The position numbers were made by a program, and so were the translations under genes. Under the pieces are notes generated by a model, which saw nothing but the letters and a program-made list of their open reading frames with translations, was not told the origin of the DNA and made no database searches. A stretch of DNA of 31,671 nt from a virus. This document shows, one piece after another, positions 2,431 through 15,250 of the stretch; within the stretch, counting starts at the first letter, position 1, and each line of letters begins with the position of its first letter. The stretch lies in IMG/VR virus record IMGVR_UViG_3300009155_000158, positions 1 to 31,671 of that record; one strand, given 5' to 3'.

Positions 2431-4884
2431 ATGGCTACGAACTTTGACAAGGCAATGGTTCCCTACAACACAGACGCAGGACTAGATGAGGGGCCGGATA
2501 TCGAGATTTTGATTGATGATCCGGAGGGGATTAGCATTGATGCGTTAGAGATTGACATTGGTGAAATAGATGACGGCTTTGATGACAACCTAGCCGAAGA
2601 CATGAGCAAGGGTGAGCTTCAGTCCATTGCTTCTGAGCTTATTGATCTTGTTGAGACCGACATTAACAGCCGTAAGGATTGGGTTGATGCCTTTGTTAAG
2701 GGTCTAGATGTCCTAGGAATGAAGTACGAAGAGCGCACAGAGCCCTGGAACGGGGCTTGTGGAGTCTTTTCAACCCTTCTTTCTGAAGCTGCCATCCGTT
2801 TCCAAGCGGAAATGATTACCGAGACATTTCCTGCTCAAGGCCCGGTTAAGACTCAAATTGTCGGGGCGATTGACAAGATGAAGGAAGAGGCGGCAGAGCG
2901 TGTTCGGGAGGACATGAACTACCAATTGACCGAGGTAATGACCGAGTACCGCCCCGAACATGAAAGGCTTTTGTATAGCTTGGGTCTGTCAGGCGCTGCG
3001 TTTAAAAAGGTTTACTACGACCCGGCGCAAGGAAGGCAGACTGCCATTTTCCTTCCCGCTGAAGATATGGTTATGCCTTATGGGGCAAGCAATATCTACA
3101 ACGCAGAACGTGTTACCCATGTAATGCGTAAAACAGAGAATGAAGTTAGGAAACTACAGGTTGCCGGGTTTTATAGGGACGTTGACCTAGGAGATCCGGT
3201 ACATATCTTCTCTGACGTTGAAAAGAAAAAGGCAGAAGAGCAAGGGTATTCCCTTACGGACGATGATCGTTATCAGTTGCTGGAAATTCATGCAGATTTT
3301 GATCTGCCGGGGTTTGAAGATGAAGACGGTATAGCTTTGCCTTACGTTATTACCATTGAGCGTGGAACTCAAGAGGTATTGGCAATCCGCAGGAATTGGA
3401 ATCAAGATGATCAACAAAGGCTCAAGCGGCAACATTTTGTTCAATACACTTACATTCCGGGGTTTGGTGCTTATGGCCTGGGCCTTATTCACCTTATTGG
3501 CGGCTATGCTCGGGCTGGTACGTCTCTTATTCGTCAGTTAGTTGATGCTGGATCATTAAGTAATTTGCCGGGTGGTTTAAAGGCCCGTGGCCTAAGGATT
3601 AAAGGAGATGACACCCCTATTGCTCCGGGCGAGTTTAGGGATGTGGATGTTCCTAGTGGAACTGTGCGTGACAACATCATGCCCCTTCCTTATAAGGAAC
3701 CAAGCCAAACCCTGCTTGCTTTGTTAAATCAAATCACCGAAGAAGGCCGCAGGCTCGGCGCTATTAGTGATATGAACATTAGCGACATGAGTTCTAACGC
3801 TCCTGTCGGCACAACCCTGGCTTTGCTTGAGCGCACGTTAAAGACGATGAGTGCGGTACAGGCCCGTGTCCATGCCTCAATGAGGATGGAATTTAAACTT
3901 CTGCGGGGGATTATTCGGGATTACACCCCGAAATCCTATAACTACGACCCACAAAGCGGCGACCGTAAAGCCAAACAAGCCGATTACGACACGACGGAAG
4001 TGATACCCGTAAGTGATCCAAACGCAGCAACGATGGCTCAACGGATCATGCAGTATCAAGCCGCCATTCAATTAGCTCAAGGCGCCCCACAAATCTATGA
4101 TTTACCCCAGCTTCACCGGCAAATGTTGGAAGTATTGGGAATCAAAAACGCAGATAAGCTTGTTCCAATTGAGGATGACCAGACGCCGAAAGACCCAATT
4201 AGCGAGAACATGGCATTCCTTGTGGGCAAACCGACAAAAGCCTTTATTTATCAAGACCATGATGCACATATCGCCACGCACATGGCAATGATGCAAGACC
4301 CGTCAATCATGCAAATGATTGGTCAGAATCCTATGGCTCAACAGATGCAAGGGGCAATCATGGCCCATATTGCACAGCATTTAGCCTTCTCTTACCGGGC
4401 AAATGTTGAGAAACAGTTGGGTGTAGAGATTCCCGCCCCGGATTCTGAGCTTACCCCTGAAGATGAGGTTCAGTTGTCTAGGCTGGTTGCCCAGGCTTCT
4501 CAACAGTTGTCTCAAGCAAATCAGCAGAAAGCGCAGCAGCAACAAGCCCAACAACAGGCTCAAGACCCTGCAATGCAACTCCAACAGGCTGAAATCCAGA
4601 TTCAACAGCAGGATTTACAACGTAAACAACAAAAAGACCTAGCCGATAACCAACTAGCTCAACAGCGGTTGGCGTTGGACGCTCAGCGGATTCAAGCCGA
4701 TATAGAAAAAGAAAAGATGAGGGTTCAGGCTGATGCACACAAATATGCGGTGCAACATCAAAATGATTCTCAAAATGAAGCCTTGAAAGTGGCAGCGCAA
4801 CAACGCCAACATAATCAAAAGATTCAAGCCGATTTAGTTAAGAACTTGACTAAAAATCAAATTCAACCAAATAAAGGTAAATGA
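2431..4884 (+). CDS. portal protein
   Basis: A large portal (817 residues) forming the DNA channel at one capsid vertex. The N-terminus is strongly acidic (about 1-60). A portal-like core follows: ETDINSRKDWVDAFVKGLDV (about 75-95) and NGACGVFSTLLSEAAIRFQ (about 109-127). Residues about 449-490 (NISDMSSNAPVGTTLALLER and on) match the conserved stretch of large podovirus portals. Residues about 690-800 are very rich in Gln/Ala/Lys and probably form a long coiled coil or barrel-like extension into the capsid, as in P22. A good ribosome binding site (AAGGA) precedes the ATG. Its position directly after the large terminase supports the call. The length favours a P22/N4-like rather than HK97-like portal. 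Confidence 0.9.
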   Translation: MATNFDKAMVPYNTDAGLDEGPDIEILIDDPEGISIDALEIDIGEIDDGFDDNLAEDMSKGELQSIASELIDLVETDINSRKDWVDAFVKGLDVLGMKYEERTEPWNGACGVFSTLLSEAAIRFQAEMITETFPAQGPVKTQIVGAIDKMKEEAAERVREDMNYQLTEVMTEYRPEHERLLYSLGLSGAAFKKVYYDPAQGRQTAIFLPAEDMVMPYGASNIYNAERVTHVMRKTENEVRKLQVAGFYRDVDLGDPVHIFSDVEKKKAEEQGYSLTDDDRYQLLEIHADFDLPGFEDEDGIALPYVITIERGTQEVLAIRRNWNQDDQQRLKRQHFVQYTYIPGFGAYGLGLIHLIGGYARAGTSLIRQLVDAGSLSNLPGGLKARGLRIKGDDTPIAPGEFRDVDVPSGTVRDNIMPLPYKEPSQTLLALLNQITEEGRRLGAISDMNISDMSSNAPVGTTLALLERTLKTMSAVQARVHASMRMEFKLLRGIIRDYTPKSYNYDPQSGDRKAKQADYDTTEVIPVSDPNAATMAQRIMQYQAAIQLAQGAPQIYDLPQLHRQMLEVLGIKNADKLVPIEDDQTPKDPISENMAFLVGKPTKAFIYQDHDAHIATHMAMMQDPSIMQMIGQNPMAQQMQGAIMAHIAQHLAFSYRANVEKQLGVEIPAPDSELTPEDEVQLSRLVAQASQQLSQANQQKAQQQQAQQQAQDPAMQLQQAEIQIQQQDLQRKQQKDLADNQLAQQRLALDAQRIQADIEKEKMRVQADAHKYAVQHQNDSQNEALKVAAQQRQHNQKIQADLVKNLTKNQIQPNKGK

Positions 4885-5075
4885 TGGACAAGTATCTTGA
4901 ATATTTAATTAAACAAATCGCCGAACGACAAAAGCATTTATCTGATGCGGTAGCTGACGGAGCGGCTAAATCATATGATGGTTATGTGATGTTGGTGGGG
5001 GAAATCCGAGGTCTTTCCTTCGCTCAAATGTGTGTAAACGACCTTGTGCGTAAATTGGAACATGAAGATGAGTGA
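4881..5075 (+). CDS. small helical protein between portal and co-chaperonin
   Basis: A 64-residue, mostly helical, charged protein with no signal peptide or membrane segment. It begins inside the portal stop (ATGATGG; an alternative start is three bases later) and overlaps the next gene, so it belongs to the head operon. I do not recognise a domain. Small helical proteins at this place are common in phage head operons and may act in portal or capsid assembly, but no function can be assigned. Confidence 0.7.
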   Translation: MMDKYLEYLIKQIAERQKHLSDAVADGAAKSYDGYVMLVGEIRGLSFAQMCVNDLVRKLEHEDE

Positions 5076-5472
5076 ACTATTGATAGCGCCTAATTTGTTT
5101 AGTGTACCTACTTCTTTGCCAGAAGTAACCACAGATAAAGCGAGGCAATTACCTGAACCGGCAACATATCATTTGCTATGTGTTCTTCCTGAAACTGAGG
5201 AAAAATACGACAGCGGGTTGATTAAATCTGGTCAGACAATGCACTTTGAAGAGGTGCTATCTCCAGTTTTGTTTGTAGTTAAGATGGGGCCAGATTGCTA
5301 TGGCGACAAAACACGCTTCCCTAGTGGGCCTTCTTGTAAGGTTGGAGATTTCATTTTGGTGCGTCCCAACACAGGCACTCGGGTAAAGATCCATGGGCGA
5401 GAGTTCAGGATCATTAACGACGATTCTGTTGAAGCGGTTGTTGAAGACCCCCGTGGCATTAGCCGAGCATAA
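5068..5472 (+). CDS. GroES-like co-chaperonin
   Basis: From about residue 30 the protein follows the GroES (Cpn10) pattern. YHLLCVLPE matches the first strand, EEKYDSGLIKSGQ matches the mobile loop with Gly-Leu-Ile in place of the GroES Ile-Val-Leu that contacts GroEL, KVGDFILVRP matches GroES 'KVGDIVIF', and FRIINDDSVEAVVED matches the C-terminal strand. It would cap the host GroEL to fold a phage protein, most likely the major capsid protein, as T4 gp31 does. The ATG at 5068 overlaps the upstream gene by eight bases; a TTG at 5044 and an ATG at 5062 are also in frame. Gly and Asp turns are conserved, while the dome loop looks altered. No GroEL is encoded in the window. Confidence 0.78.
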   Translation: MSELLIAPNLFSVPTSLPEVTTDKARQLPEPATYHLLCVLPETEEKYDSGLIKSGQTMHFEEVLSPVLFVVKMGPDCYGDKTRFPSGPSCKVGDFILVRPNTGTRVKIHGREFRIINDDSVEAVVEDPRGISRA

Positions 5473-5481
5473 GGAGCAATC

Positions 5482-6405
5482 ATGGCCGATGAATTTAAAT
5501 TTCCCGATGAGCAAGAAGTTAACAACAAGGAAACAGCCTCTGCGGAAGTAGAGATTGAAATTGTTGATGACACCCCAGCAGCGGACAAAAACCGCAAGCC
5601 AATGACGGAAGCCCCGGCAGATGTCACCGATGAAGAGCTAGAGCAATATAGCGACAGCGTTAAAAAGCGCATCCAGCACTTCACCAAGGGATATCACGAA
5701 GAGCGCAGAAACAAAGAAGCTGCGTTGCGAGAGCGGGAAGAGGCGGTAAACCTTGCTCAAAACCTTGTAGAAGAGAACAAACGTCTACAGGGTTCTTTGG
5801 GTCAGGGTCAAGCTGCTTTGCTCGATCAAGCCAAAAAAGTTATTAGCGCGGAGGTAGAAGATGCCAAGCGCCAATACAAGGCGGCTTATGAATCTGGCGA
5901 CTCTGAAGCGTTGGTAAATGCACAAGATGCCTTAACAAATGCCAAGATTAAAGCTGATCGTGTAAACAATTTTAAATTACCCCCTTTACAAGAACCAAAA
6001 ACTGCGGTACAAAGGCAACCAGAGCGTGTAAACGCACCAGCAACACCTTACGTTGATACCAAAGCAAGAGCGTGGCAGGACAAAAATCCTTGGTTTGGTT
6101 CGGACGATGAGATGACCGCTGTTGCGTTAACAGTACACAAAAAACTTGTTGAAAGTAACATTGACCCTACTAGCGACGAGTACTACGAGAAAATCAATTC
6201 CCGTGTACAACAGCTTTTTCCAGATGCGTTCACCTCGGAAAAACCTGTCAAAAAGTCAATGGTAGTGGCTTCTGCTACTAGAAGTACGGCACCGCGCAAA
6301 ATCGTGCTAACTCAATCGCAAGTAAACATCGCCAAGCGGCTAGGCGTTCCACTGGAAGCCTATGCTAAGCAGGTTGCGGCAGATATAAGGAAACAGAATG
6401 GCTGA
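5482..6405 (+). CDS. scaffold-like protein
   Basis: A 307-residue acidic protein with a disordered Glu/Asp-rich N-terminus and a long coiled coil (about 53-160; EERRNKEAALREREEAVNLA). A Pro/Gln linker and a more ordered C-terminal part follow (about 195-250; WQDKNPWFGSDDEMTAVALT and PTSDEYYEKINSRVQQLFPD). Size, composition and position between portal and capsid genes fit a scaffolding protein that guides procapsid assembly and then leaves. The ATG follows AAGGAG. No prohead protease is visible nearby, so it is probably released intact, as in P22. The call rests on composition and synteny, not on a diagnostic motif. Confidence 0.7.
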   Translation: MADEFKFPDEQEVNNKETASAEVEIEIVDDTPAADKNRKPMTEAPADVTDEELEQYSDSVKKRIQHFTKGYHEERRNKEAALREREEAVNLAQNLVEENKRLQGSLGQGQAALLDQAKKVISAEVEDAKRQYKAAYESGDSEALVNAQDALTNAKIKADRVNNFKLPPLQEPKTAVQRQPERVNAPATPYVDTKARAWQDKNPWFGSDDEMTAVALTVHKKLVESNIDPTSDEYYEKINSRVQQLFPDAFTSEKPVKKSMVVASATRSTAPRKIVLTQSQVNIAKRLGVPLEAYAKQVAADIRKQNG

Positions 6406-7730: not shown

Positions 7731-8642
7731 ATGGCTATTTCACGCGCACAACTACTTAAAGAACTCCTGCCTGGACTGAACGCACTGTTTGGTCTGGAGT
7801 ATGCTCGTTACGGCGAAGAGCATAAGGAAATCTACGACACCGAGACTTCAGAGCGCAGCTTTGAAGAGGAAACCAAACTGTCTGGCTTCTCTGCCGCTCC
7901 GGTAAAGAACGAAGGCTCTGCCATTGCTTATGACAATGGTCAGGAAGCTTGGACTGCTCGATACAACCACGAAACCATTGCCCTGGGTTTCTCCATCACC
8001 GAAGAAGCGATGGAAGATAACTTGTATGACAGCCTGTCGGCTCGTTATACAAAGGCTTTGGCTCGCGGTATGGCATACACCAAGCAGGTTAAAGCTGCTG
8101 CGGTCATCAACAACGGTTTCAGCGCCGGTGTTACTTATGGTGACGGTGTGTCTTTGTTCTCGACGGCTCACCCGCTTGTCTCCGGTGGCACTAACAGCAA
8201 TCGTCCTGCAATTGCTGCTGACCTGAACGAAACTTCATTGGAAAGCGCAGTAATTCAAATTGCAGCGTGGACAGATGAGCGTTCGTTGCTGATCGCCGCT
8301 AAGCCCAAGAAGCTGATCATTCCTCCGGCTCTGATGTTCGTTGCTACTCGTCTGTTGGAAACGTCGTTGCGTGTTGGCACGACTGACAACGATATCAACG
8401 CCATCAAGAACAATGGTTCGATTCCGGAGGGCTACACGGTCAATCACTTCTTGACCGACACCAACGGCTGGTATCTGACCACCGACGTTCCTAACGGCCT
8501 GAAGCACTTTGTGCGGACTCCGTTGAGCACGTCGATGGACGGTGACTTTGACACGGGCAATACCCGCTACAAGGCCCGTGAGCGTTATAGCTTCGGTGTT
8601 AGCGATCCGCTGGGTATCTTTGGTTCGCCCGGTTCGTCCTGA
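7731..8642 (+). CDS. major capsid protein (Mu gpT-type, HK97 fold)
   Basis: A 303-residue main shell subunit. The N-arm (LLKELLPGLNALFGLEYARY) leads to the E-loop region with YDTETSERSFEEETKLSGF and GFSITEEAMEDNLYD, which fit the Mu-like major head subunit gpT family. LFSTAHPLVSGG and SLLIAAKPKKLIIPPALMFV are also typical of that family. The length is normal. It has an AAGGAG ribosome binding site and the codon use of a highly expressed gene, and a strong terminator follows 15 bases after its stop. This suggests it ends a transcription unit and is strongly expressed. The co-chaperonin at 5068-5472 is its likely folding helper. Confidence 0.9.
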   Translation: MAISRAQLLKELLPGLNALFGLEYARYGEEHKEIYDTETSERSFEEETKLSGFSAAPVKNEGSAIAYDNGQEAWTARYNHETIALGFSITEEAMEDNLYDSLSARYTKALARGMAYTKQVKAAAVINNGFSAGVTYGDGVSLFSTAHPLVSGGTNSNRPAIAADLNETSLESAVIQIAAWTDERSLLIAAKPKKLIIPPALMFVATRLLETSLRVGTTDNDINAIKNNGSIPEGYTVNHFLTDTNGWYLTTDVPNGLKHFVRTPLSTSMDGDFDTGNTRYKARERYSFGVSDPLGIFGSPGSS

Positions 8643-11801: not shown

Positions 11802-13163
11802 ATGGCAAAACCTGTAAATGCAATGACGGGGGATGCCCCGGACGGTCAAAATCCGGATAAGAAGTATGTCCCCAAAGCTGCGGAAATGAGGTTTAAATAC
11901 GCGCCTCCACCGCCTCCTAAGCCAAATCCAAAGGATGAGGGCATCTTTACAGAAGAGATGTTACGTCGGTCTGGTGGCAAGATGAAAGAACCGCCATATG
12001 ACCCGGAAGGGAAGAAGCGTGGTGGCTCTATCAAGAAACGTCGCTTTGATGAAGGCGGTGAAGTAGAAGATAAAGCCGCTGGCCTTAAAGCCTCAAAGGG
12101 TGAAGATGTAGGCTTCTTTAAACGCTTGATGATGGGCAACATTGATCAGCCCGGATCTGAGGCGTATGAAAAGTTTGGCGCTGGTCGAGGCAAAGCCGCT
12201 AGGGAAGCCGAGGTTGAAACGGCTCGAGAAAGCGGGCGAACTGCTGAGCGATATAAACCTGCTGCCGTTGAGTCTGAAAAGCCTGTAGCGCCTGTAGCAA
12301 GCAAACCAGACAAGTATTCGGATTTTGGAGACAACGGTGACGTAGGTACTATTGAGTACAGTCCTGTCAATAAACCCACTGTTAAGCCAACTGTTCGACC
12401 GACTATCTCCTCGTCGGATAGGCCAATGCCTCCCGTTAGCGCGGGAAACCCTCGTGATGCCGAAAAAGGCATGAGCCGTGGAAGGCGAGACACCGATACG
12501 CGGAACGCAGAACAAGGCATGAGTCGCGGCATGAGGGGTGAAGGCCCGCCATCTGCTTCTCGGGATTACAAAGCTGAAGAAAAGCAACGACAAGACGCAG
12601 AAGCGGATTACAAACGGATCACTAAGCCTGGAAGAGATGCTATTGAGGGCGTCTATCCTGAAGAGTTGTTGATTCCCGGTGGCAAAGCAGCCAAGTATGG
12701 TTTAAATGCATTAAAAGGTGCAGCCAAACCTGTTGGTTCCACCAGTCGCGCTCTTGCTGAATATGAGACGCCAATTACCTTTCTAGGGAAGGGCGCACAA
12801 AAGAACGTCACTCCAATGGAGCGACTGGCTACTGATCGAGCCAAGCGTTTGACCTATGACGAAGCGCAAGGCATAGCATCTAATGCTACACCTCGCGTTG
12901 GCGGGCCTAAAGCTCAAGCCGAGAGAGAAGTTGCAGAGACTATTGCAAGGCTGAAGCAGTCTAAGTCTGGCGGGTCTTCCGGTGCCCCTGTGCGGCAGCG
13001 GTCTCCAAAAGACATGACAAGCTTTAAATCAGCAGATGAGTTAGGGATTGATTTTAAACGTGGAGGCAACATTAAGCGTTATGCCTCTGGTGGTTCAGTA
13101 TCAGCGTCTAGCCGTGGTGACGGATGCGCTCAACGTGGCAAAACTCGTGGAACAATGAGGTAA
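11802..13163 (+). CDS. large disordered basic protein with GG motifs and C-terminal tag
   Basis: A 453-residue, Lys/Arg/Pro/Gly-rich and mostly disordered protein. Two short repeats, DAEKGMSRGRRDTDTR and NAEQGMSRGMRGE, lie near residues 222-247. A hydrophobic stretch, EELLIPGGKAAKYGLNALKG, sits near residues 286-305 and resembles sequences in toxin or internal phage proteins. GG motifs occur at KKRGGSI, FDEGGEV, FKRGGNI and YASGGSV. The last 20 or so residues (SSRGDGCAQRGKTRGTMR) recur almost unchanged at the end of the next gene. The start has a ribosome binding site (AAGGA). No enzymatic motif was found; an internal or assembly role in the virion is inferred from its neighbours. Confidence 0.7.
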   Translation: MAKPVNAMTGDAPDGQNPDKKYVPKAAEMRFKYAPPPPPKPNPKDEGIFTEEMLRRSGGKMKEPPYDPEGKKRGGSIKKRRFDEGGEVEDKAAGLKASKGEDVGFFKRLMMGNIDQPGSEAYEKFGAGRGKAAREAEVETARESGRTAERYKPAAVESEKPVAPVASKPDKYSDFGDNGDVGTIEYSPVNKPTVKPTVRPTISSSDRPMPPVSAGNPRDAEKGMSRGRRDTDTRNAEQGMSRGMRGEGPPSASRDYKAEEKQRQDAEADYKRITKPGRDAIEGVYPEELLIPGGKAAKYGLNALKGAAKPVGSTSRALAEYETPITFLGKGAQKNVTPMERLATDRAKRLTYDEAQGIASNATPRVGGPKAQAEREVAETIARLKQSKSGGSSGAPVRQRSPKDMTSFKSADELGIDFKRGGNIKRYASGGSVSASSRGDGCAQRGKTRGTMR

Positions 13164-13168
13164 TCATG
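13072..13168 (+). repeat. C-terminal tag and ribosome-binding-site cassette, copy 1
   Basis: Encodes KRYASGGSV...DGCAQRGKTRGTMR, the stop, the ribosome binding site and the next start. The last 23 bases (13146-13168) are identical to 14234-14256. The tag's Met-Arg codons (ATGAGG) form part of the ribosome binding site of the next gene. Confidence 0.85.
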
Positions 13169-14251
13169 GCTAAGATGAGACGTTTTGACAATGGTGGTGG
13201 AGTCGGGCTTGATTTTGGCCCATCTCCGTCATATCAAACCCCGGCAGATCATTTCACCAATCTTCCGTCTGGAAGCCCGCAGCAGTTCAATGCTATGCGT
13301 AGTGCAATTGGCTTGTCGCCTATGGAGGATTCCAACGACAATGATGCCAATATACAAAAAGCAAAAGCTATGATGGGTTCTATTGTTGGTTTAACACCCA
13401 ACGATAACAACTACTCATTGCAAGATGCTATTTCTCAACTAAGGGGTCAGTACTCTGCTCCGGCTCAGCCAATTGTACAAGCCCCCCCGCCTCCTATAGC
13501 CTCCAGTCCGGAGCCGGACTTTATGGCCGGTTTTTCTCCGTCAATGAGGGCTCGTTTTGCGGCAAATCAAGCCCGCAGCAAACCAGAGGGGCCGGATCAA
13601 GAAAGAGCTTTGATGGCTCGTTTTGAGGCAAATCAAGCGAGAGCCAATGCCAAGCGGGATTTGGGCATGAAGAGCGGTGGTGGCGTTAAGGCCAAAGGCA
13701 GTAAGGTCAAGAAGTTTGCTGAAGGTGGTGAAATTGATAACGATTTTGGAGCCATGAACGAAGGCCCAGCTGGTGATGACTCTTACACTCCAGCCCCCAA
13801 AGCAGAACCCAAGACACGCGGAGAAGCCTTCCGCGCTGCTCGTGCTGCCGGTGACAAGACGTTTGAGTTTGAGGGCAAGAAATACACCACTGAACTAGCC
13901 AAGCCAAAATCTGCCGCTAAGGAAGAAGCTCCCAAATTTGCTTCTGCTAAAAGCCCTGGCATCATGCAACGGATGCGTGACGCAGATGCGGCGATGGTGA
14001 AGTCTGCACAAGCAAAAACTAGGCAAGGTAACGCTGATCTTGGCAGTGCCAATGCAGGGCCGTCAGGAACTGGCGGCAGGCTTACCGGCGACCGCATGTC
14101 CCCGGCGTATGGTCAAGGGCGGGTAAATCCTGACACCTTGCTTCCCATGAAAAAAGGCGGCTCTGTCAAAAAATTTGCTTCCGGTGGTTCAGTTTCTAGT
14201 CGGGCTGATGGTTGCGCTCAGCGGGGCAAGACCCGTGGAACAATGAGGTAA
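13166..14251 (+). CDS. disordered basic protein with GG motifs and C-terminal tag
   Basis: A 361-residue, Ala/Pro/Lys/Gly-rich and largely disordered protein. An internal repeat, MRARFAANQARSKPEGPDQE and MARFEANQARANAKRD, lies near residues 128-170. GG motifs occur at RFDNGGGV, MKSGGGV, FAEGGEI, MKKGGSV and FASGGSV. The C-terminal tag (RADGCAQRGKTRGTMR) is nearly identical to that of the previous gene. The ATG at 13166 fits the duplicated AATGAGGTAATC ribosome-binding sequence; an in-frame start at 13124 lies inside the previous gene and is unlikely. The fusion-like reuse of one tag in consecutive genes suggests a common address or attachment signal. The function is unknown. Confidence 0.72.
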   Translation: MAKMRRFDNGGGVGLDFGPSPSYQTPADHFTNLPSGSPQQFNAMRSAIGLSPMEDSNDNDANIQKAKAMMGSIVGLTPNDNNYSLQDAISQLRGQYSAPAQPIVQAPPPPIASSPEPDFMAGFSPSMRARFAANQARSKPEGPDQERALMARFEANQARANAKRDLGMKSGGGVKAKGSKVKKFAEGGEIDNDFGAMNEGPAGDDSYTPAPKAEPKTRGEAFRAARAAGDKTFEFEGKKYTTELAKPKSAAKEEAPKFASAKSPGIMQRMRDADAAMVKSAQAKTRQGNADLGSANAGPSGTGGRLTGDRMSPAYGQGRVNPDTLLPMKKGGSVKKFASGGSVSSRADGCAQRGKTRGTMR

Positions 14252-14613: not shown

Positions 14614-14799
14614 ATGGCAAAAGCTAAATCCACTGTTAATGAAGCGGGCAACTACACCAAACCTGAGTTGCGTAAAAAGATTGTGGCGAATGTGAAAGCA
14701 GCAGCTACTCAAGGTACAGGGGCTGGAGAATGGAGCGCCCGAAAGAGTCAATTAGTAGCAAAAAAGTACAAGGCCGCTGGCGGTGGCTATCGTGACTGA
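14614..14799 (+). CDS. small basic conserved protein (YTKPELRKK...WSARKSQ family)
   Basis: A 61-residue protein with Asn-Tyr-Thr-Lys-Pro-Glu-Leu-Arg-Lys-Lys near residue 12 and the signature GEWSARKSQLVAKKYKAAGG near residue 38. I recall this signature in small proteins of phages, bacteria and large DNA viruses (I think a DUF family, not verified). It is basic and probably helical, and may bind nucleic acid. It abuts the previous gene with no intergenic base and overlaps the endonuclease gene, so all are translated together. The function is unknown. Confidence 0.78.
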   Translation: MAKAKSTVNEAGNYTKPELRKKIVANVKAAATQGTGAGEWSARKSQLVAKKYKAAGGGYRD

Positions 14800-15250
14800 A
14801 GCCACAAAAACTTGTACGGATTGCGGCGAGACGAAACAATTGTCCGCATTTCGTAGTCGCGGTGGGCAAATGACGCATTTGTACAAGAGCCATTGCAACA
14901 CTTGTCTTTACAAAAGGCATAAAGATTGGGCAGAGAACAATCAACATAGGGTAGCAGAGTACCGCGAAAGAGACCCATGGACTTTGGCTAAGCGATGTTC
15001 GCGTCGGGGGATTACTCCAGAACAGCTTGTGGAAAGATATGAACGGCAAGAGGGTTGTTGTGCAATCTGCAAAACTGAAGTTACGTTAATAGAAAGCGCA
15101 ATTGACCATAACCATGAAACCGGAGAGTTTCGAGGGGTACTTTGCAAACAATGTAACCGGGCATTAGGGATGTTTAAAGACAGTACTACGATATTGCGTA
15201 ATGCCGTAGAATACCTTAGTGCTTTTGGTAGTTACAGCAATGACTCTTAA
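14783..15250 (+). CDS. endonuclease VII-type HNH/zinc nuclease
   Basis: A 155-residue (or 152, if the GTG at 14792 is used) free-standing nuclease. An N-terminal zinc finger has C11-x2-C14 and C38-x2-C41. The C-terminal T4 endonuclease VII-type domain has C93-x2-C96, D108-H109-x-H111, the G114/R117/L120 pattern and C121-x2-C124-N125. Family members cut Holliday junctions or branched DNA, and some behave as homing endonucleases. Resolving branched concatemers before packaging is one likely role; spread of its own gene is the other. Both GTG starts lack a clear ribosome binding site, and the GTGA overlap with the previous stop suggests re-initiation. It overlaps the next gene by eleven bases. 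Finding it in the middle of virion genes is unusual. Confidence 0.85.
   Translation: MAIVTEATKTCTDCGETKQLSAFRSRGGQMTHLYKSHCNTCLYKRHKDWAENNQHRVAEYRERDPWTLAKRCSRRGITPEQLVERYERQEGCCAICKTEVTLIESAIDHNHETGEFRGVLCKQCNRALGMFKDSTTILRNAVEYLSAFGSYSNDS

Follow-up and report, generated by a model that had tools for sequence, protein, structure and literature searches.

A GroES-type co-chaperonin of a known kind, with a conserved docking-loop variant, encoded in the head-gene region of a virus record

The window analysed here is the whole stretch of 31,671 nucleotides of the virus record IMGVR_UViG_3300009155_000158 (positions 1 to 31,671), and the feature under study is the open reading frame at 5068-5472, designated P0001. 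The genes and gene segments concerned are the following:

925-2421, + strand: terminase large subunit (phrog_38, E=2e-108)
2431-4884, + strand: portal protein (phrog_1216, E=2.1e-20)
4881-5075, + strand: 64-aa ORF, overlapping the portal gene and, by 8 nt, the start of cpn10
5068-5472, + strand: cpn10-type co-chaperonin gene P0001, an ATG-started ORF of 134 aa (phrog_3188 and predicted fold)
5191-5265, + strand: mobile-loop region, residues 42-66 (boundaries by alignment; helix 55-63 in the model)
5218-5226, + strand: tripeptide Leu51-Ile52-Lys53, equivalent by alignment to GroES Ile25-Val26-Leu27
5290-5337, + strand: residues 75-90, at the position of the GroES roof hairpin by alignment and conservation, with a putative role as such
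5482-6405, + strand: head-region protein in scaffold position (phrog_28737, a family of unknown function, E=2.1e-44), putative scaffold
7731-8642, + strand: major capsid protein of 303 aa (Phage_capsid_4 / Mu gpT type), from its linkage the likely folding client

The genes follow one another in the order terminase, portal, 64-aa ORF, cpn10, the 5482-6405 gene, two more genes and the major capsid gene, the last of which exceeds the Pfam cut-offs of both Phage_capsid_4 (52.5 against 27 bits) and Mu gpT (28.6 against 20.1 bits). In 11 related phage records, the place of the 64-aa ORF is taken by a gene of 55-79 aa whose sequence is poorly conserved. The original prediction had placed the co-chaperonin gene between portal and scaffold genes. 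The portal gene is indeed found upstream, whereas the name "scaffold" applies to the 5482-6405 gene by position only, because its sole family match is to a family of unknown function, and the 64-aa ORF intervenes on the portal side. All the motifs then quoted for the ORF are present in its translation, SGLIKSG corresponding to residues 49-55, KVGDFILVRP to 91-100 and VVED to 124-127.

P0001 matches phrog_3188 ("co-chaperonin GroES") with E=2.9e-9, residues 31-126 aligning with positions 5-95 of the 96-position profile, that is, with the whole domain. Against the Pfam Cpn10 model (PF00166), the single sequence scores 16.5 bits, under the gathering score of 21.1; this score is passed by 19 of 25 records of relatives, the six below it being IMG/VR contigs, and all 39 members of one set of relatives (A1) match the model at E<=0.1 (best, 1.6e-5). 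Searches of PDB sequences gave weak matches (best E=0.022 with the single sequence and 0.025 with a profile). Profile-profile comparison of the P0001 family with five GroES proteins gave E=1.8e-5 (probability 78), and the same comparison with T4 gp31 was not significant (E=0.06, probability 0.9). At E<=1, phrog_3188 was the only family listed for P0001; phrog_931, the family to which T4 gp31 itself is assigned at 3.7e-50, is not among the matches listed. Relatives of P0001, which are encoded in at least 600 candidate viral stretches, grade from 85% identity to proteins that resemble GroES, and the direct matches among GenBank phages comprise seven records, 31-50% identical and each annotated as GroES. 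Strong purifying selection is indicated by dN/dS values among close relatives (median 0.057 and maximum 0.19 over 103 close pairs), and many positions are invariant in 74 distinct sequences, including Lys53 and a DPRG motif near the C-terminus. A faster evolution of cpn10 compared with the adjacent genes was considered and dropped, as its median identity in the capsid loci is 61%, against 63% for the terminase and 60% for the portal.

An AlphaFold model built from 100 diverse rows reached a pLDDT of 83.0 and a pTM of 0.69; since 10 of the 100 alignment rows had been retrieved with E. coli GroES as query, the model and the homology evidence are not independent of each other. With 39 close relatives only, no usable fold was obtained (pLDDT 44.9). 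Foldseek comparison of the model with the PDB returned Cpn10, GroES or gp31 structures at all ranks from 1 to 31 (E from 2.5e-6 to 2e-3). With VIA, the best structural match was the GroES of 8wuc (Z 10.4 over 91 residues at 2.8 Å), followed by gp31 (Z 8.3 and 7.9), dehydrogenase rows reaching at most 6.5; in a viral library, the top fold matches were co-chaperonins of uncultured viruses (E=6.6e-14). The original prediction had proposed a comparison of the predicted structure with GroES and gp31: the model shows the Cpn10 barrel, and its best matches are these two proteins. We conclude that 5068-5472 is a real gene for a Cpn10/GroES-type co-chaperonin and that the co-chaperonin name holds. The view that the head operon contains a GroES-like co-chaperonin comparable to gp31 is likewise upheld by the phrog_3188 match, the predicted Cpn10 fold and the nearby gpT-type capsid gene.

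This kind of co-chaperonin is already known, since GroES has been reported in HTVC023P-type, CRP-901-type and B8b phages. The same family, phrog_3188, occurs in HTVC023P-type pelagiphages, Planktothrix phage Pag-Yong1, Synechococcus phage MinM2 and Roseobacter phages CRP-901/902, most of which carry the GroES gene between the portal and capsid genes with a small ORF upstream, as here. GroES belongs to the 13 core genes described for 82 HTVC023P-type genomes (PMC9599517), it is marked in CRP-901-type genomes (PMC10149686), and in siphovirus B8b, where it was also reported, a role in capsid or tail was suggested (PMC4294664). P0001 resembles E. coli GroES in its fold, in its C-terminal half (KVGD...) and in the position of the loop. 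It differs by an N-terminal extension of about 26 residues, a short C-terminal tail, a loop about 4 residues longer, with the extra residues after the tripeptide, and the replacement of Leu27 by Lys53. T4 gp31 and P0001 are both phage co-chaperonins with SGLI in the loop and a loop longer than that of GroES, but the gp31 loop reads SGLII, with Ile where P0001 has Lys. PMC6318259 describes for gp31 a loop of 22 residues against 16, the absence of the roof loop and a chamber about 8% larger for the 56-kDa gp23; the length of the roof hairpin is, in contrast, kept in P0001.

The original prediction had read the docking tripeptide as Gly-Leu-Ile in place of Ile-Val-Leu. This reading has to be corrected: the loop alignment is ungapped through the tripeptide, bridged by the natural intermediates GGVIKAD, GGIIRPD, GGVFMPD and GGIVLAE, and its register places Gly50 on GroES Gly24 and Lys53 on Leu27 of E. 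coli GroES, so that the tripeptide is Leu51-Ile52-Lys53; T4 gp31 moreover shares SGLI. As judged from the alignment, the true departure from the GroES tripeptide is thus the Lys at the third position. GroES positions 25 and 27 are canonically Ile, Leu or Met, and of the two P0001 counterparts Leu51 belongs to this group and Lys53 does not. Among the 100 diverse rows, all 38 at 60% identity or more have Lys at the third position; Lys or Arg occupies it in 29 of the 36 at 40-60%, hence in 67/74 at 40% or more, and in a single one of the 26 rows below 40%. The first position is Ile, Leu or Val in 100/100 rows, the second is mostly hydrophobic, and close relatives show strong conservation of the loop. 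By comparison, the position of Leu27 is Ile or Leu in 64/64 aligned cellular GroES, in a sample covering two phyla and a few MAGs (71 loci fetched, including 11 from MAGs with phage-like copies, and 7 dropped because no GroES was retrieved from them with the profile). As a separate observation, many of 61 genomes in the phylum of G013 encode, next to an ordinary GroES, another Cpn10-like match that is divergent and scores about 44-49 bits.

In E. coli GroES, the substitutions L27A and I25A weaken the affinity from 3.8 nM to over 5 µM, L27D abolishes binding and V26D is tolerated, as stated in PMC5575113. The loss of GroEL binding by L27A and L27D makes Lys53 an argument against ordinary docking, and the Lys-type family departs from the rule drawn from these mutants, since its Leu27 equivalent is Lys or Arg. 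On a tree computed from columns without the tripeptide, the basic state changes 6 times, against 27 with shuffled labels; this tree is poorly resolved, and as it has few columns and many open forks we do not claim a single origin of the basic residue. Overall, P0001 is a co-chaperonin of a known kind with a conserved docking-loop variant.

Cpn10 and the gpT-type capsid gene are almost strictly linked. The capsid protein led to 80 loci (84-91% identical); in 58 of them cpn10 lies about 2.3-2.9 kb upstream of the capsid gene, in the remaining 22 less than 2.9 kb separates the capsid gene from the start of the locus, and no locus with room lacks cpn10. Conversely, of 385 cpn10-derived loci in which the ORF is complete, 285 have the capsid gene downstream, 57 of these having been retrieved by the capsid scan; another 99 are of insufficient length for a decision, and only one, a distant relative (L253), has room downstream but no capsid gene. 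GenBank phages include 22 records with a relative of the capsid protein; the analysis covered 20 of these, all but MW202604 and the fragment MT836833, and Cpn10 was found in all 20, in 16 by Pfam model search (16/16) and in 4 by tblastn (Pra-JY27, RW, RLK and KcrB). Among the 25 records searched for both, Cpn10 was present in 25/25 and GroEL in 0/25, so the host GroEL would have to serve. Two divergent, capsid-bearing records, vir526 (an archaeal virus) and MW202601, looked like exceptions, as their annotation shows no cpn10 from portal to capsid; a search of the whole records located the gene elsewhere, outside the portal-capsid interval. We also noticed a GroES-like gene near the terminase and outside this interval in a virus assigned to Methanomicrobiales (BK063670.1; L190, 827-1234, - strand).

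We propose, with a probability of about 0.68, that P0001 is a phage GroES-type lid, a heptamer that would dock via its mobile loop on the host GroEL, replace the host GroES and help the gpT-type capsid protein to fold. Seven copies of P0001 would form a GroES-like ring which may dock on the host GroEL through the mobile loop; in late infection, this phage lid would take the place of the host GroES, and its client would be the abundant gpT-type capsid protein, much as gp31 serves gp23 in T4. The conserved Lys could lower or re-tune the affinity for the host GroEL, influence the choice of the host GroEL or pair with an acidic GroEL residue, and the longer loop may add further GroEL contacts. The modified chamber that had been suggested is not supported if understood as an enlargement: the size of the capsid protein does not call for a larger chamber, as it has only 303 aa, far under the ~56 kDa of gp23, for which the larger chamber of gp31 is invoked (PMC6318259).

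As an alternative, the co-chaperonin could serve mainly in a general takeover of the host GroEL, to the benefit of various phage proteins or of growth in the cold or under stress, its gene standing next to the capsid gene only through block inheritance of the head module. Cpn10 shares its inheritance with the portal and capsid genes, and all 18 portal matches lie in capsid-bearing records, which makes hitch-hiking within the head module possible; in addition, a study of the Southern Ocean virome, in which viral chaperonins are described as frequent, sees viral GroEL/GroES as a cold adaptation (PMC8407431). However, vir526 and MW202601 keep cpn10 although it lies outside the portal-capsid interval, and none of 11 control phages that share only the terminase has a Cpn10. 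We therefore consider this explanation rather unlikely. One of these controls, Bacillus phage Pookie, carries a PF25209 capsid without Cpn10, and the capsid fold as such thus does not demand a Cpn10. A retained Cpn10 fold that has lost the usual GroEL docking, the basic residue marking another partner (a GroEL paralogue or a phage protein) or a structural role, would suit the 67/74 rows with Lys or Arg where cellular GroES has Ile or Leu, as well as the L27A and L27D mutants (PMC5575113), but it appears improbable given the aliphatic first position in every row, the mostly hydrophobic second and tolerant position, a loop as strongly conserved as expected of a docking element and no sign of relaxed constraint (median dN/dS 0.057).

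Returning to the phage lid acting on the host GroEL, a more specific proposal can be made tentatively, at somewhat less than even odds: a very abundant group of aquatic phages might have fixed Lys or Arg as third docking residue and use a different GroEL-binding chemistry, such as a salt bridge with an acidic residue of the apical domain, supplemented by contacts of the longer loop. The binding would be adjusted to rapid release or to a single host GroEL, and the co-chaperonin would serve one capsid-protein family only. In the literature, as partly covered, no prior statement was found of the basic docking residue or of the near-strict capsid pairing. If the Lys-type loop docks on GroEL, the rule derived from E. 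coli mutants, that residues 25 and 27 have to be large and hydrophobic, is not general. The tripeptide is LIL in HTVC027P, IIR in Pag-Yong1, IVL in DSL-LC04 and LIK in P0001, and the natural phage loops LIK, IIR, LIL and IVL would then offer a ready series for relating docking strength to the folding cycle. The near-strict pairing with the capsid gene names the likely client and thereby opens to direct testing the reason for which phages encode a lid of their own.

A host was also sought through genome assemblies. The 15 matches fall on contigs of MAGs whose assigned phyla are unrelated to one another, and are read as phage DNA in bins; for this reason no host is named. Genes of the psbA type were found in 0 of 17 records searched.

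Several other features of the window were recorded in passing. The 9563-10468 gene encodes a 301-aa repeat protein (FGYG...TNKVSNTGVVATDTTGVGTAR) with several near-identical copies of its repeat, and the adjoining genes at 11802-13163 and 13124-14251 have near-identical tails (SRGDGCAQRGKTRGTMR and SRADGCAQRGKTRGTMR, respectively). GG-rich motifs such as KKFAEGG and KRYASGG are common to several genes. Finally, a 155-aa ORF at 14783-15250, inside the structural region, contains CxxC motifs in pairs as well as the HNH-like sequence DHNHETG, and is a putative endonuclease VII-type gene.
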